The notes beneath the pieces were generated by a model, which worked only from the letters and a program-made list of their open reading frames with translations, made no database searches and was not told the DNA's origin. Of a stretch of 64,000 nt of DNA, positions 41,194-49,440 are shown piece by piece; position 1 is the first letter of the stretch; every line of letters begins with the position of its first letter. Source of the stretch: Methylopila sp. M107 (GTDB taxonomy: Bacteria; Pseudomonadota; Alphaproteobacteria; Rhizobiales; Methylopilaceae); contig NZ_ARWB01000001.1 in NCBI RefSeq assembly GCF_000384475.1, positions 2,026,176 to 2,090,175 on the forward strand, read 5' to 3'. The translations under genes and the position numbers were made by a program.

Positions 41194-42054
41194 ATGGCTC
41201 GTCCGGCGGGCATGATCGCGGTTTGGCGCCCAGGCGTTGTTCTGGCCGCCGCGCTTGCGCTCGCAGGCTGCGACACGATGGGCTCGGGCTCGCGCGACGT
41301 CGACCCGGACGTCTACGCCGCCCGCACCTCGGACCTCTCCTCGCTCTCCCAGGTGGTGAACAGCAACCCGAACGACCCGGAAGCGCTCAACATGCGCGGC
41401 TCGGCCTATGCGCGGCTCGGCCAGTACGACAACGCGATCGGCGATTTCAACCGCGCGGTCCAGATCAACGGCTCGTTCGCCAAGGCCTACGCCAACCGGG
41501 CGCTGGCCTACCGCTCGAAGGGCGACAACGGCGCGGCGCTCGCCGACTACAACCGGGCGATCGAGGCCGACGGCAATTACGGCTCGGCCTATGTGGGCCG
41601 CGGCAACCTCTACCGCATGACCGGCCGCACCGATTCCGCGCTCGCCGATTTCGACCGCGCCATCCAGGTCGACCCGAACAATGCGCAGGCCTGGCACAAT
41701 CGCGGACTGATCCATCAGAGCCAAGGCCGCCAGGAAGACGCGATCGACGACTTCACCAAGGCGACCGCGATCTCGGTGACGCAGGCGGAACCCTATATCG
41801 GCCGCGCCAACAGCTATCTCGCGCAGGGCGACTACGCGGCCGCGATCGACGACTTCAACACCGCCCGCACGCTCGCGCCGAAGAACGTCGACGCATGGCT
41901 CGGCCGCGCGCAGGCCTTCGAGAAGCGCAACGAGCTGCAGAACGCCCGCGCGAGCTACGCGCAGGTGTTGAACATCGACGCTCGCAACAAGCAGGCCCAG
42001 GAGGGCTTTTCGCGCGTCGGCGGGCAGCGCGGTACGGCGTATACGGAGAACTGA
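41194..42054 (+). CDS. TPR-repeat lipoprotein
   Basis: The 286-residue protein has a lipoprotein signal with lipobox LALAGC, so it is probably anchored to the outer membrane. At least six TPR units follow, such as YARLGQYDNAIGDFNRAVQ, YRSKGDNGAALADYNRAI and YLAQGDYAAAIDDFNTA. The protein probably serves as a scaffold. Its last 46 codons are duplicated as a fragment at 45642-45779. A hairpin GGCTTCGCCCGAAGCC follows the stop. Confidence 0.92.
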   Translation: MARPAGMIAVWRPGVVLAAALALAGCDTMGSGSRDVDPDVYAARTSDLSSLSQVVNSNPNDPEALNMRGSAYARLGQYDNAIGDFNRAVQINGSFAKAYANRALAYRSKGDNGAALADYNRAIEADGNYGSAYVGRGNLYRMTGRTDSALADFDRAIQVDPNNAQAWHNRGLIHQSQGRQEDAIDDFTKATAISVTQAEPYIGRANSYLAQGDYAAAIDDFNTARTLAPKNVDAWLGRAQAFEKRNELQNARASYAQVLNIDARNKQAQEGFSRVGGQRGTAYTEN

Positions 42055-42438
42055 GCGAGGCTTCGCCCGAAGCCCTGCCCGCGCCGTTCGCCAGAAGACG
42101 CAAGACGGCGGCGGCAATCGGTCCGGACAGCTCCACGGCGGCGCGGTGCGGGCGACGGAGGCGATGAGCTGCGCTTTGGTGGGCAGAACGTCGTGGCCCG
42201 ACGGCCGCGGCCCGTGGCAATTTCGACAGGATCGCGACAGACTCGGCGATTATCATTTCGTGATCGCTCCGCTCTGTCTCAACTGTGGGCTGTCGGATGC
42301 GAAACGACCAAGCTTTAAAACAACAACTGCCCAACCAAAAACCAAAGCGGGCCGACGCATAGCGCGCCAAAGCTCCATGCGACGCTCGCCGGATCGGAAA
42401 TAAATCCGACCGGAAAACGACACGTGGGGAAGTGCTCG
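42055..42438. other. Gene-free region between the TPR lipoprotein and tctC
   Basis: No supported gene. A perfect 7-base hairpin GGCTTCG-CC-CGAAGCC (42059-42074) follows the TPR stop. An AT-richer segment near 42300-42350 (GCTTTAAAACAACAACTGCC) may be the tctCBA promoter. Nothing indicates a riboswitch. Confidence 0.4.
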
Positions 42439-45618: not shown

Positions 45619-45641
45619 CCCTCGGCGCGCCTCGCGAGACG

Positions 45642-45779
45642 TTCACGAGGCGCAACAAGCTGCGGAACGCCCGCGCCAGCTGCGCCCAGGCGCTGAACAT
45701 CGACGGCCGCAACAAGCCGGCCCAGGACGGTTTTTCGCGCGTCGGCGGGCAGCGGGGCGCGAGCTTTACGGAGAATTGA
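45642..45779 (+). pseudogene. Truncated copy of the TPR lipoprotein 3' end
   Basis: This stretch translates as a near copy of the TPR lipoprotein C-terminus (NKLRNARASCAQALNIDGRN, then FSRVGGQRGASFTEN and a stop). The corresponding part of the intact gene is 41917-42054. By eye about 85 percent of bases match over some 130 positions. No start codon or signal is present, so it is a gene remnant. It lies just downstream of tctA, so the tct genes are bracketed by direct copies. Confidence 0.75.
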
Positions 45780-45884
45780 GGGGGTGCTGCAGAGCCGGGC
45801 TTCGGAGCGAACGTTTTTGCCTCTACCTCCTGTTGCAACGGCAAATCGTTTAGCTAGCCTCGCCTGATTGGCGGGGCGGACACG

Positions 45885-48686
45885 ATGTCGGAACCAATCA
45901 CTCTGGCGGCGATCGCCATGATGGCGCTCAGTGGCGTGATCGGAAACCGCTCGGACAGTTTCCTTTGCGATCGTGCGGGCCGACTTTGGGCGCATCTCAG
46001 GGACGGCCGTTCGGAACCCGCCAACCATGACGTTCTCAAAGCAGTGCGGCGCTCGCAGCTTCTCGCGCTGAAGCTGACGATCAAGGCTTACGATCGACTG
46101 CCTCATCCCTCGATCCGCAATCCGGGCGGCTTTTCCTATGAGGATATCTCCACCCCGCTTTCCGAATGGGCGGGCAAGTCGATCGCGTGGGGCGAAATCA
46201 CTACGGTCGACAATCCCGACCGATTGAACGAGGTCATCACGAGCGTCTCGCAGGTCTTCGTCGTGCCGACGCCGACTGAAGGCCCAGCGGGCGATCGGCA
46301 TCGCGCGCTGCGCCGGCTCGCTGAGGATTGGACGCTCGACGAAGCAAGACGGCATGCCCCGAACGCCGTTGATTGGGATCGCTTCGCCGCGCTCGTCCGC
46401 GGCGAGCGCCCGAGACCCCTGGCCGGCGCGGACAGCGACGAGACGCCGTTCGTCGGCTGGTGGGCGCTTTTCAAGGTTTTCTTCGCCGAGGAGATAAAGC
46501 GCGATGACCGCGTCAGTCGGATTCTGACGCAGCAGGGCGTCGCCTCGATCCTCGAACTTCAGACCGAACTGGCCGAGGATGTCCGCCAGCTTCAGTCCGG
46601 GCTCGAAGATGTCGTGGTCCAGTTGAATGACGCCTTGGCGCTTATCCGCTCGATGGCGGCCGAACTCGCTGTGATCACCAAGCTCGTCAGCAAACTCGAC
46701 GAGCAATCGAGCAGAGCCGTCGAGCTGCTCCTGGACCGCGACCGGGCGCGTCTTCTTAGGCTCATCGAGCGGCCCGAGCAGAAATGGGACTCCTGGCAGC
46801 GCCATGTCAAACCGATCGCCATCGTCGGCCGGGGGCAAGAACTCGCGTCATTGGCGTCCTTCACCGCGTGTCCTGACCAGTTCAGCTGGCAAGTCATCTA
46901 CGGGCCGCACGCGATCGGAAAATCGCGGATCGCGCTGGAATGGCTGAAGTCGATCCGCTCGCTTGAGACCGGATGGATTCTGGGGTTTGCACCAGAACGG
47001 CCCGCCGATCTCCAGTACTTGGCGCGGCTGTCTCCACCGGGCCCAATAGCGCTTGTCGTCGACGACGCGGGATCGTTCGGCGAAGCCTTATGGGAGTTCA
47101 TGTACGATCTCTTGCGCCGCTGGACCAAGCACCCCGTCCGCATTCTCCTGATCGGGTACTCCGACCTGTGGCCCCTCCCCGGCCGTCCTCCCGAACGGAA
47201 GGATCGCATCGGCGCGGCGAAATGGCGGTTGGCTGAATCCGCCCCGGCGGCGACGCCTGACATGACCTCGCCCGCACGCGGCGCGGTGACCGAGGGGTCA
47301 TCGGGAGCGACGTCGGAGCGCTTGAGAGAACAAATTCGCGGCATTCAGATTTTGCCGCTAGACGAGACGGTTCAGCGGGAGCTTCTCGCCGCGGCCGTCG
47401 AGACGGCCGGAACGGAATCGCCTGACCTGGATGTCGGCGACGCATTGCGGGGCGCGCAAGGTCGGCCCGCCATTCTCCTGCTTGCGGCCAACCATCCGAA
47501 CGACTGGCAGGACTATCTCCGCGACTACGCGGCTGGGTTGGTCTCGCGCGCGGCAACTCACTTGGGCGCGGACTGTGACGACGGCGCAAAACTCTTGGCT
47601 CTTGCGGCTCTCGCGGGCCCTATTCCGGACGAAGTCCGCGCGCGGGTCGCTCCGAACGCAAGGCCGCCGCGCCGACTGGTCGAAATCTTCGGAGAAACCG
47701 AGCACCGCCTGAGCCGAGAAATTCCCCGTATCGAACCCGATCTGATCGGTCAGCATGTCGCCATCGCCGCGTTCTTGACGCTGTCCTTTGGCGACCGCGT
47801 AGAACTTGCCAGCCAGATCGCAGCGGCCAACCCGCCGAGATTCACGGAGCAGGTCACCGCGCTTTGGTCTCAGGAGAACAGATTTACGAGCTCGTGCGAT
47901 TTTGGCTCGGACACAGACAGTTATGAAACCTCTCTGGCGGAGTTACTTCAGCTCTTATCCGAAGCGGCGGCGCCAAAGCGCCAGAGATACATCTATTCTC
48001 CAAATTCTTCACTGACAAAGACCCTGAATTCTGCCCTATTCGATATTTTGATACAAACAAACAAAACCGATTTGGTTAGCAGCAGAAAAATAATTGAATG
48101 CATAGTCGACAATTCACACACGGATTCCGTCTTACGGTTGTTCCAATTCATTCTCGATGATAATGATTTTGATGAATCAAATAGAGTATATTGGCACTCT
48201 TTGCTGCACGGATATGTCCTTCGTGACTTTACGATATCCAATCGACATCCGGACAATCCGGTCGATTGCTCCGGCCTCCTCGCGTCCCTGACCTCCGACT
48301 TGCCGATGGGCCGCATCCACGCGGCGTTCGAAATCTCGGAATGGGCGCGCGATAACCCGGCCAATCCAAGGCAAGTCGCGTTCGACTTCGACGCCATTGC
48401 GGACGCGCTGATCGCGATGATCTCAAGCAGTCGACTGTCCGAACAAATCTCCGCAGCGTTCGCACTGAAATGGCTTGCCTCGGACGTGACCGGCCGGCCC
48501 GGCGAAGATCGTATCAGGCCGCAGGACTGGGACGCCGTCACCGTGAAGTTGGGTGAAGCTCAAGCACCTCCGGAACTGAGCCTGCAACTGCTCCAGACGT
48601 TGAGTTCGGCGCGCCAGTTATCTTTCAGATTGAAGGATATCACCGCTTGGTTGCCGGTCGAAACGCGATCCATGCCGTCAAACTAG
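45885..48686 (+). CDS. Large P-loop NTPase, candidate STAND-type defence protein
   Basis: The 933-residue protein has Walker A GPHAIGKS (340-347) preceded by VGRGQELASLASF, Walker B-like LVVDDAG (390-396) and a sensor-like ILLIGYSD (420-427), the layout of STAND ATPases. Residues 1-210 form an unassigned N-terminal domain starting with a hydrophobic stretch (ITLAAIAMMALSGVIG), followed by a coiled coil (about 220-300). The C-terminal half is helical and may contain HEAT-like repeats. A block around 700-785 is encoded by much AT-richer DNA than its neighbours, suggesting transfer. It is followed 10 bases later by a HEAT-like partner gene. Function is unknown. Confidence 0.75.
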   Translation: MSEPITLAAIAMMALSGVIGNRSDSFLCDRAGRLWAHLRDGRSEPANHDVLKAVRRSQLLALKLTIKAYDRLPHPSIRNPGGFSYEDISTPLSEWAGKSIAWGEITTVDNPDRLNEVITSVSQVFVVPTPTEGPAGDRHRALRRLAEDWTLDEARRHAPNAVDWDRFAALVRGERPRPLAGADSDETPFVGWWALFKVFFAEEIKRDDRVSRILTQQGVASILELQTELAEDVRQLQSGLEDVVVQLNDALALIRSMAAELAVITKLVSKLDEQSSRAVELLLDRDRARLLRLIERPEQKWDSWQRHVKPIAIVGRGQELASLASFTACPDQFSWQVIYGPHAIGKSRIALEWLKSIRSLETGWILGFAPERPADLQYLARLSPPGPIALVVDDAGSFGEALWEFMYDLLRRWTKHPVRILLIGYSDLWPLPGRPPERKDRIGAAKWRLAESAPAATPDMTSPARGAVTEGSSGATSERLREQIRGIQILPLDETVQRELLAAAVETAGTESPDLDVGDALRGAQGRPAILLLAANHPNDWQDYLRDYAAGLVSRAATHLGADCDDGAKLLALAALAGPIPDEVRARVAPNARPPRRLVEIFGETEHRLSREIPRIEPDLIGQHVAIAAFLTLSFGDRVELASQIAAANPPRFTEQVTALWSQENRFTSSCDFGSDTDSYETSLAELLQLLSEAAAPKRQRYIYSPNSSLTKTLNSALFDILIQTNKTDLVSSRKIIECIVDNSHTDSVLRLFQFILDDNDFDESNRVYWHSLLHGYVLRDFTISNRHPDNPVDCSGLLASLTSDLPMGRIHAAFEISEWARDNPANPRQVAFDFDAIADALIAMISSSRLSEQISAAFALKWLASDVTGRPGEDRIRPQDWDAVTVKLGEAQAPPELSLQLLQTLSSARQLSFRLKDITAWLPVETRSMPSN

Positions 48687-48696
48687 GGGGGCGTCC

Positions 48697-49389
48697 ATGA
48701 TTGCAGCATCGGAAGTCGTCGTCGAGAGACTGCATGAACTCGCTTCGATGCAAAAGGGCGATGATTTTGTTCGTATCACCTCTGCGACTTGCGTTCTCAA
48801 GATGGGTCATTGGAACCCCGCCTACGACTCCTTGTTCGAGGATCAGCTTTTTGGCTCCAGATGGACTTTGAAGGCGCGACTCCAGTTCATCGGCAGACTG
48901 AGCACGCTGCCTGACGGCTTGGGGCTCCCGTTGCTTACTGAAGTCGTCAAGCGAGGCGGCCCCAAAGAAGCTTACCTAGCGATCGCCGCGCTCACGCGGA
49001 CCGGCGCGATCGAAGCGCTCGGTGCTCTAAGGAACGAGCTCCGAAGGATGGGTCTCGAAGCAATCATTGACGAGACGCGCGCATATGTCGACGGCTCAAA
49101 TTGGACCGGAAGCGCCGCAACGCAACTGCGCAATGAACTCAAGAAGATTTACATCAGCTCAAGCGGGGAACTGATTCAGAAGCTCAAGGCCAAAGACAGC
49201 ACCGGGAGATGGGCCTACTACTTCGTTTTGGTGGAGAAGGAATTGGAAGCCGACTTCTTGGCGGCGATCAAGGGTAACGGCGAAGTCGATCTGGAAATTT
49301 ATGGGCAAGTCATCGCGTCATGTTACGGCGAGGCGCCGACAGACGAAGTGATCAAGTTTCTCAACGACGAGTACGGCTTCGTGGTTTGA
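48697..49389 (+). CDS. HEAT-like partner of the P-loop NTPase
   Basis: The soluble 230-residue protein is mostly helical, with paired helices such as LPLLTEVVKRGGPKEAYLAI and LTRTGAIEALGALRNELR that resemble HEAT units. No catalytic motif is seen. It starts 10 bases after the NTPase gene and probably shares its transcript. Base composition is also lower in GC than the housekeeping genes. A strong hairpin follows. Function is unknown; a partner or specificity subunit is the simplest reading. Confidence 0.7.
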   Translation: MIAASEVVVERLHELASMQKGDDFVRITSATCVLKMGHWNPAYDSLFEDQLFGSRWTLKARLQFIGRLSTLPDGLGLPLLTEVVKRGGPKEAYLAIAALTRTGAIEALGALRNELRRMGLEAIIDETRAYVDGSNWTGSAATQLRNELKKIYISSSGELIQKLKAKDSTGRWAYYFVLVEKELEADFLAAIKGNGEVDLEIYGQVIASCYGEAPTDEVIKFLNDEYGFVV

Positions 49390-49398
49390 GCATGGGGA

Positions 49399-49440
49399 CG
49401 AGGCTCCCTTCCCCGCAAATTCGCGGGAGAGGGAGCCTCG
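49399..49440. terminator. Strong hairpin between convergent genes
   Basis: CGAGGCTCCCT at 49399-49409 pairs perfectly with AGGGAGCCTCG at 49430-49440, with an inner CCCGC/GCGGG stem. It sits between the NTPase operon and thiC, whose genes converge here, and probably ends both transcripts. Confidence 0.65.

Follow-up and report, generated by a model that had tools for sequence, protein, structure and literature searches.

A recently acquired gene pair of Methylopila sp. M107 encodes a divergent STAND-type ATPase and a candidate sensor partner

In the 64,000-nucleotide stretch of the Methylopila sp. M107 genome analysed here (the window), two co-directional genes, p1 and p2, lie between a TctCBA transporter operon and the convergent gene thiC. 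The features of the locus are as follows.

45637..45780, + strand: shortened second copy of the upstream TPR gene's 3' end, adjacent to p1 (83% to 41912-42055)
45885..48686, + strand: p1, 933-residue STAND-type NTPase (ORF; family and fold comparisons)
45885..46529, + strand: p1 N-terminal helical module, residues ~1-215, proposed output or effector part (hydrophobic start; motifs NHDVLKAVRR and FFAEEIKRDD)
46506..46763, + strand: p1 predicted coiled coil or long helix, residues ~208-293 (secondary structure of the model)
46812..47759, + strand: p1 STAND NTPase with the helical/winged-helix part behind it, residues ~310-625; the family motif (L/I)EPDxxG closes it
46902..46925, + strand: Walker A GPHAIGKS, p1 residues 340-347 (invariant G340, G345, K346)
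47061..47066, + strand: Walker B aspartates D393 and D394, D-Y in the family (family alignment)
47913..48644, + strand: p1 C-terminal HEAT-like helical repeats, residues ~677-920, proposed sensor (all-helical in a low-confidence model)
48685..48691, + strand: SD-like AGGGGGG for p2, 5 nt ahead of its start (sequence)
48697..49389, + strand: p2, 230-residue partner (ORF; codon bias in the coding frame)
48697..49161, + strand: p2 HEAT-like alpha solenoid, residues 1-155 (model; alpha-solenoids lead the VIA list)
49168..49386, + strand: p2 alpha/beta tail domain, residues 158-230 (60% identity to the C-terminal end of an NTPase encoded on a Nostoc plasmid)
49399..49440, + strand: strong hairpin between p2 and the convergent thiC, probable two-way terminator (-37.2 kcal/mol, z -5.35)

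p1 and p2 are both genuine open reading frames. They occupy 45885-48686 (933 residues) and 48697-49389 (230 residues) on the + strand, 10 nucleotides apart, exactly where a preliminary description of this DNA placed them, and the intergenic sequence is AACTAGGGGGGCGTCCATG. GC at third codon positions (GC3) is 0.71 in p1 and 0.67 in p2 versus 0.87-0.94 in the TPR gene, TctC, TctA and thiC, so the lower GC reported earlier is real. The drop is most marked in p2 (GC 0.55) and towards the C-terminus of p1 (GC 0.52). Since both genes combine a coding-frame codon bias with low GC3, the lower GC belongs to coding sequence. The hairpin at 49399-49440 is GC-rich and lacks a T run.

A rival reading is that both proteins descend from one chain, split by a recent frameshift that left a damaged or dying system. 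The end of p1 and the beginning of p2 both appear to be HEAT-like helices, encoded in neighbouring frames, the p2 frame is open for 21 codons upstream of its ATG, and a Nostoc protein described below carries the tail domain fused to an NTPase in one chain. However, p2 has its own ATG and SD-like site, and the TAG stop of p1 precedes the intergenic G run; therefore, the two frames would not be fused by an indel within the run. Both frames are, moreover, intact, with codon bias of the coding type. From the arrangement of the stop and the SD-like site, a frameshift origin was rated unlikely.

The pair has been recently and horizontally acquired, as the preliminary description had supposed. It is absent from all 12 congeners compared, its codon usage is foreign and the interval between the TPR gene and thiC is variable; absence from congeners and atypical composition mark it as mobile or accessory. 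The TPR gene and thiC are adjacent in G001 (0.6 kb apart) and G005 (0.23 kb), whereas other genes separate them in G007, G008, G010 and G012 (1.5-2.3 kb) and in G009 and G011 (15 kb). Among the genomes of the genus compared, only that of Methylopila sp. M107 holds TctCBA and p1-p2 within this interval. In four further members of the family p2 was not found, and p1 gave only a marginal, partial match in G013 (E 5e-4). The searches yielded no close homologue of the complete pair, and its occurrence in a single genome is not that of a core operon conserved in all relatives. Scans of genome contigs gave no match to p1 or p2, and p1 had none in plasmids, phages or viral contigs.

A 144-nt direct repeat (41912-42055 and 45637-45780) places its second copy between the TctCBA operon and p1. 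This repeat of the TPR gene suggests a scar of stepwise insertion by recombination. No tRNA att site was found in the 64-kb window, and the flanking ORFs showed no integrase.

The NTPase of p1 is a divergent STAND-type ATPase of the Cdc6/Orc type with Walker A and B motifs. The Walker A motif GPHAIGKS singled out earlier lies at residues 340-347, and the LVVDDAG strand proposed as Walker B-like is centred on D393/D394. An alignment of 11 family sequences revealed an invariant GxxxxGK(S/T)R, the Walker B aspartate, an arginine past the next strand and a late EPDxxG, the invariant residues being G340, G345, K346, R348, D393, R419, P618, D619 and G622. Pfam produced only sub-threshold matches to AAA_16 and nSTAND_NTPase5 (each E about 1e-3), p1 reaching 19 bits against a curated cut-off of 34 for the latter (PF25199). 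Profile search and structure prediction both indicate a STAND ATPase. When a profile of the p1 family was compared with PDB sequences, the top match was the plant NLR ZAR1 (E 7e-4). The AlphaFold model of p1 has a mean pLDDT of 47 and is trustworthy only at residues ~317-425 (pLDDT 65-82), being poor outside the ATPase because closer relatives were not found. Its top Foldseek matches include SAMD9, EfAvs5 and Apaf-1, together with clamp-loader/Cdc6 AAA+ proteins. VIA-align gave Z values of about 13 to Cdc6/ORC (13.4 to ORC1, 3.0 Å over 139 residues), and its list also includes Avs5 and the NRC2 resistosome; identity in the structural matches of p1 was below 20%. p1 is assigned to the STAND ATPases because of its invariant GxxxxGKSR and D393, the ZAR1 profile match and the model matches to Cdc6/ORC, Avs5 and Apaf-1. 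The STAND type suggested at the outset is thus supported, and the family is of this type rather than a known housekeeping one.

In the low-confidence model, the NTPase is flanked by helical parts on each side. A long helix or coiled coil is predicted at residues 208-293, where the preliminary description had a coiled coil. The module ahead of it is all-helical in the same model, and its first hydrophobic stretch, 19 residues long, averages 1.6 on the Kyte-Doolittle scale, a borderline value for a membrane helix. Its motifs are collinear in three relatives (L063, L065 and L015), ahead of their NTPases, with weak single-sequence scores, and a profile of the module gave only two further matches, both marginal. 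We propose that the module stands in the effector position and may act like the helical N-termini of CC-NLRs. At the position of the p1 C-terminal helices, relatives carry repeats; the order effector, NTPase, repeats is clear in these relatives, and from them the same order, claimed for p1 at the outset, seems likely for p1.

Members of the p1 family were found in 20 of 347 genomes of the order, its own genome included (E<=1e-6). The relatives, obtained by searching alphaproteobacterial genomes, are distant and align over the coiled coil and the NTPase. Their N-terminal modules include TIR_2 (L067, L069), an HTH-Mrr_cat nuclease (L068) and a DUF676 esterase (L003), with pentapeptide-like repeats, read by eye only, in L011; their C-termini hold Ank, TPR or Sel1 repeats. 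The group L068 to L074 is further removed, its kinship to p1 being via the ATPase alone. Mobility genes lie beside several relatives: a relaxase (L016, L060), ParB/ArdC/integrase (L018) and an IS110 transposase (L065). Effector exchange together with mobility is a pattern typical of conflict systems (PMC8195603; PMC12931631), and, judged from sequence, the p1 family shows it.

Two further observations concern these relatives. In L003 (1-2757, - strand), the DUF676 serine esterase is fused ahead of the p1-family STAND NTPase, possibly as a lipase-type effector. The small proteins that adjoin five relatives and carry repeated ExWxxxGxxHRxxGPA motifs are homologous to one another (L016:7652-8311, L024:7178-7798, L066:9545-10126, L059:5633-6133 and L060:9984-10529); four of the five are co-directional and 53-80 bp upstream, forming a recurrent two-gene unit. 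p1 is without this partner.

p1 might be a regulatory protein, with p2 as its modulator, rather than part of a defence system. MalT, a STAND-type transcription regulator, is among the Foldseek matches of the p1 model (8bob), and the genes around the pair are metabolic. STAND proteins do include regulators (PMC8195603). On the other hand, searches of p1 and p2 revealed no DNA-binding domain, TIR, Mrr and esterase modules occur in relatives, and recent acquisition and the patchy spread of the p1 family speak against regulation, which we regard as decidedly improbable.

The second protein was described at first as HEAT-like, which holds for about its first 155 residues. The p2 model (mean pLDDT 69) has helix pairs at residues 3-155 and a separate beta-beta-alpha-beta-alpha domain at 158-226, so that residues 158-230 fall outside that description. 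The model gave no significant Foldseek match, and VIA Z values were at most 6.6, mostly over the solenoid, as is ordinary for helical repeats. The separate, mobile tail had been overlooked, as had its presence at the end of another STAND-like NTPase. Over 78 residues, the tail shares 60% identity with the C-terminus of WP_114085885.1 (tblastn E 2e-23), scoring 100 bits against a maximum of 26 for 500 shuffled tails. WP_114085885.1 has 1,050 residues and is encoded on the mobilizable Nostoc plasmid pNsp_l; it shows sub-threshold matches to HTH and NB-ARC-like NTPases and, by eye, TPR-like repeats. Its NTPase is of a different subfamily, with a match to the p1 family profile confined to the P-loop region. 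Because this domain forms the C-terminal end of a STAND-like NTPase in Nostoc, we take p2 most plausibly to be a sensor end that has become detached from a STAND protein, a reading drawn from one close relative and several distant ones.

The tail is unnamed in Pfam, NCBIfam, PHROGs and PADLOC. It occurs by itself, as a small protein, on a Runella plasmid with caspase genes nearby and in two alphaproteobacterial genomes (G169, G363). Stand-alone loci include L032:7637-7897, L033:8417-8761, L034:8264-8509, L035:7766-8041 and others in G169 and G363. One 1.9-Mb genome holds seven copies and another three, some of them adjoining housekeeping genes.

That the tail also occurs alone would suit a p2 gene that is independent instead of a sensor part, and whose product might, for instance, inhibit p1 or protect the cell from it. 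The ExWxxxGxxHRxxGPA proteins beside five p1 relatives are unrelated to p2 and show that the p1 family repeatedly has small partners of other kinds. Nevertheless, a solenoid followed by a tail is what other STAND proteins have in one chain at the sensor end, and we consider an independent p2 rather doubtful.

The N-terminal module of p1 might likewise be an adaptor, bringing in an effector from another locus. Such adaptor (EAD) use is common in STAND-type systems (PMC8195603), and no enzyme motif was recognised at the p1 N-terminus. An EAD-type pairing of the same domain was, however, not found in this genome: the p2 tail is present in a single copy, and the profile search lists no second copy of the N-terminal module. 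The adaptor reading is, in our estimate, unlikely.

The preliminary description could not assign the pair to a named system, and no named defence family matches in the libraries searched. PHROGs, NCBIfam and PADLOC gave nothing useful, the PADLOC Avs models yielded 0 families for p1 at E<=1, and Pfam gave no SIR2 domain in p1. Weak matches to IcmG, LicD, WGR_XIII, Sirohm_synth_C and, for the tail profile, a nitroreductase were judged to be chance. No known defence genes were recognised beside the pair, its neighbours being TctCBA and thiC.

We favour the reading of the pair as a horizontally acquired NLR-like (STAND) conflict system, with a probability of roughly 55%, its anti-phage role being suggested by the architecture and the relatives; on the same grounds, defence is the most likely role. 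p1 would be a switch kept closed by ADP. Its C-terminal HEAT-like repeats, completed by p2 bound to p1, would meet a foreign ligand, phage being the presumed trigger, upon which nucleotide exchange by the NTPase would lead to oligomerisation of p1. The N-terminal helical modules, gathered in this way, would act on the cell and stop or kill it once infected. Their target would most likely be the membrane, given the hydrophobic helix at the start of the module. p2 would supply a separately translated sensor end, made of a solenoid and a transferable alpha/beta recognition or docking domain. More tentatively, the pair could represent a two-polypeptide NLR-like receptor in which a second gene, bearing a transferable recognition domain, completes the sensor in trans, making sensor ends exchangeable between unrelated STAND switches, and whose helical, membrane-acting output domain is common to a small undescribed STAND branch; we see this as possible, though doubtful.

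The pair adds a probable immune-type switch without a named match in the four family libraries searched. p1 marks an alphaproteobacterial STAND branch with TIR, nuclease and esterase modules in its members. The p2 tail appears to be a mobile domain, passed from the sensor end of one switch to that of another, unrelated one, and offers a handle for locating further systems; if p2 truly completes the sensor, the exchange of sensor ends between genes becomes testable.

An NLR-like STAND switch is a known kind, and the partner p2 is undescribed. Avs5 (AVAST type 5, SIR2-STAND-TPR; PMC12931631), among the best structural matches to p1, has the arrangement proposed for p1, a STAND ATPase in the middle with the effector position on its N-terminal side and repeats on its C-terminal side. 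p1 differs from it in lacking SIR2 and any nSTAND3 or PADLOC model match, and in having HEAT-like repeats and a second gene. The plant and animal NLRs ZAR1, NRC2 and Apaf-1 share with p1 an NB-ARC/Cdc6-type NTPase and, judged from the p1 model, a helical N-terminal part with a hydrophobic start, but p1 has no LRR or WD40, and its effector part is unrelated by sequence. Of the nSTAND NTPase families described by Kaur et al. 2021 (PMC8195603), nSTAND_NTPase5 includes L068 above its cut-off (41 bits), whereas p1 and the other relatives remain just below. The DY/DD Walker B and EPDxxG motifs, of which we found no description, set p1 apart from these families. WP_114085885.1, an HTH-NTPase-TPR-tail protein, shares with p2 the C-terminal tail of ~75 residues; it differs from the pair in its NTPase subfamily, in having TPR where the pair has HEAT and in uniting in one chain what the pair divides between two.
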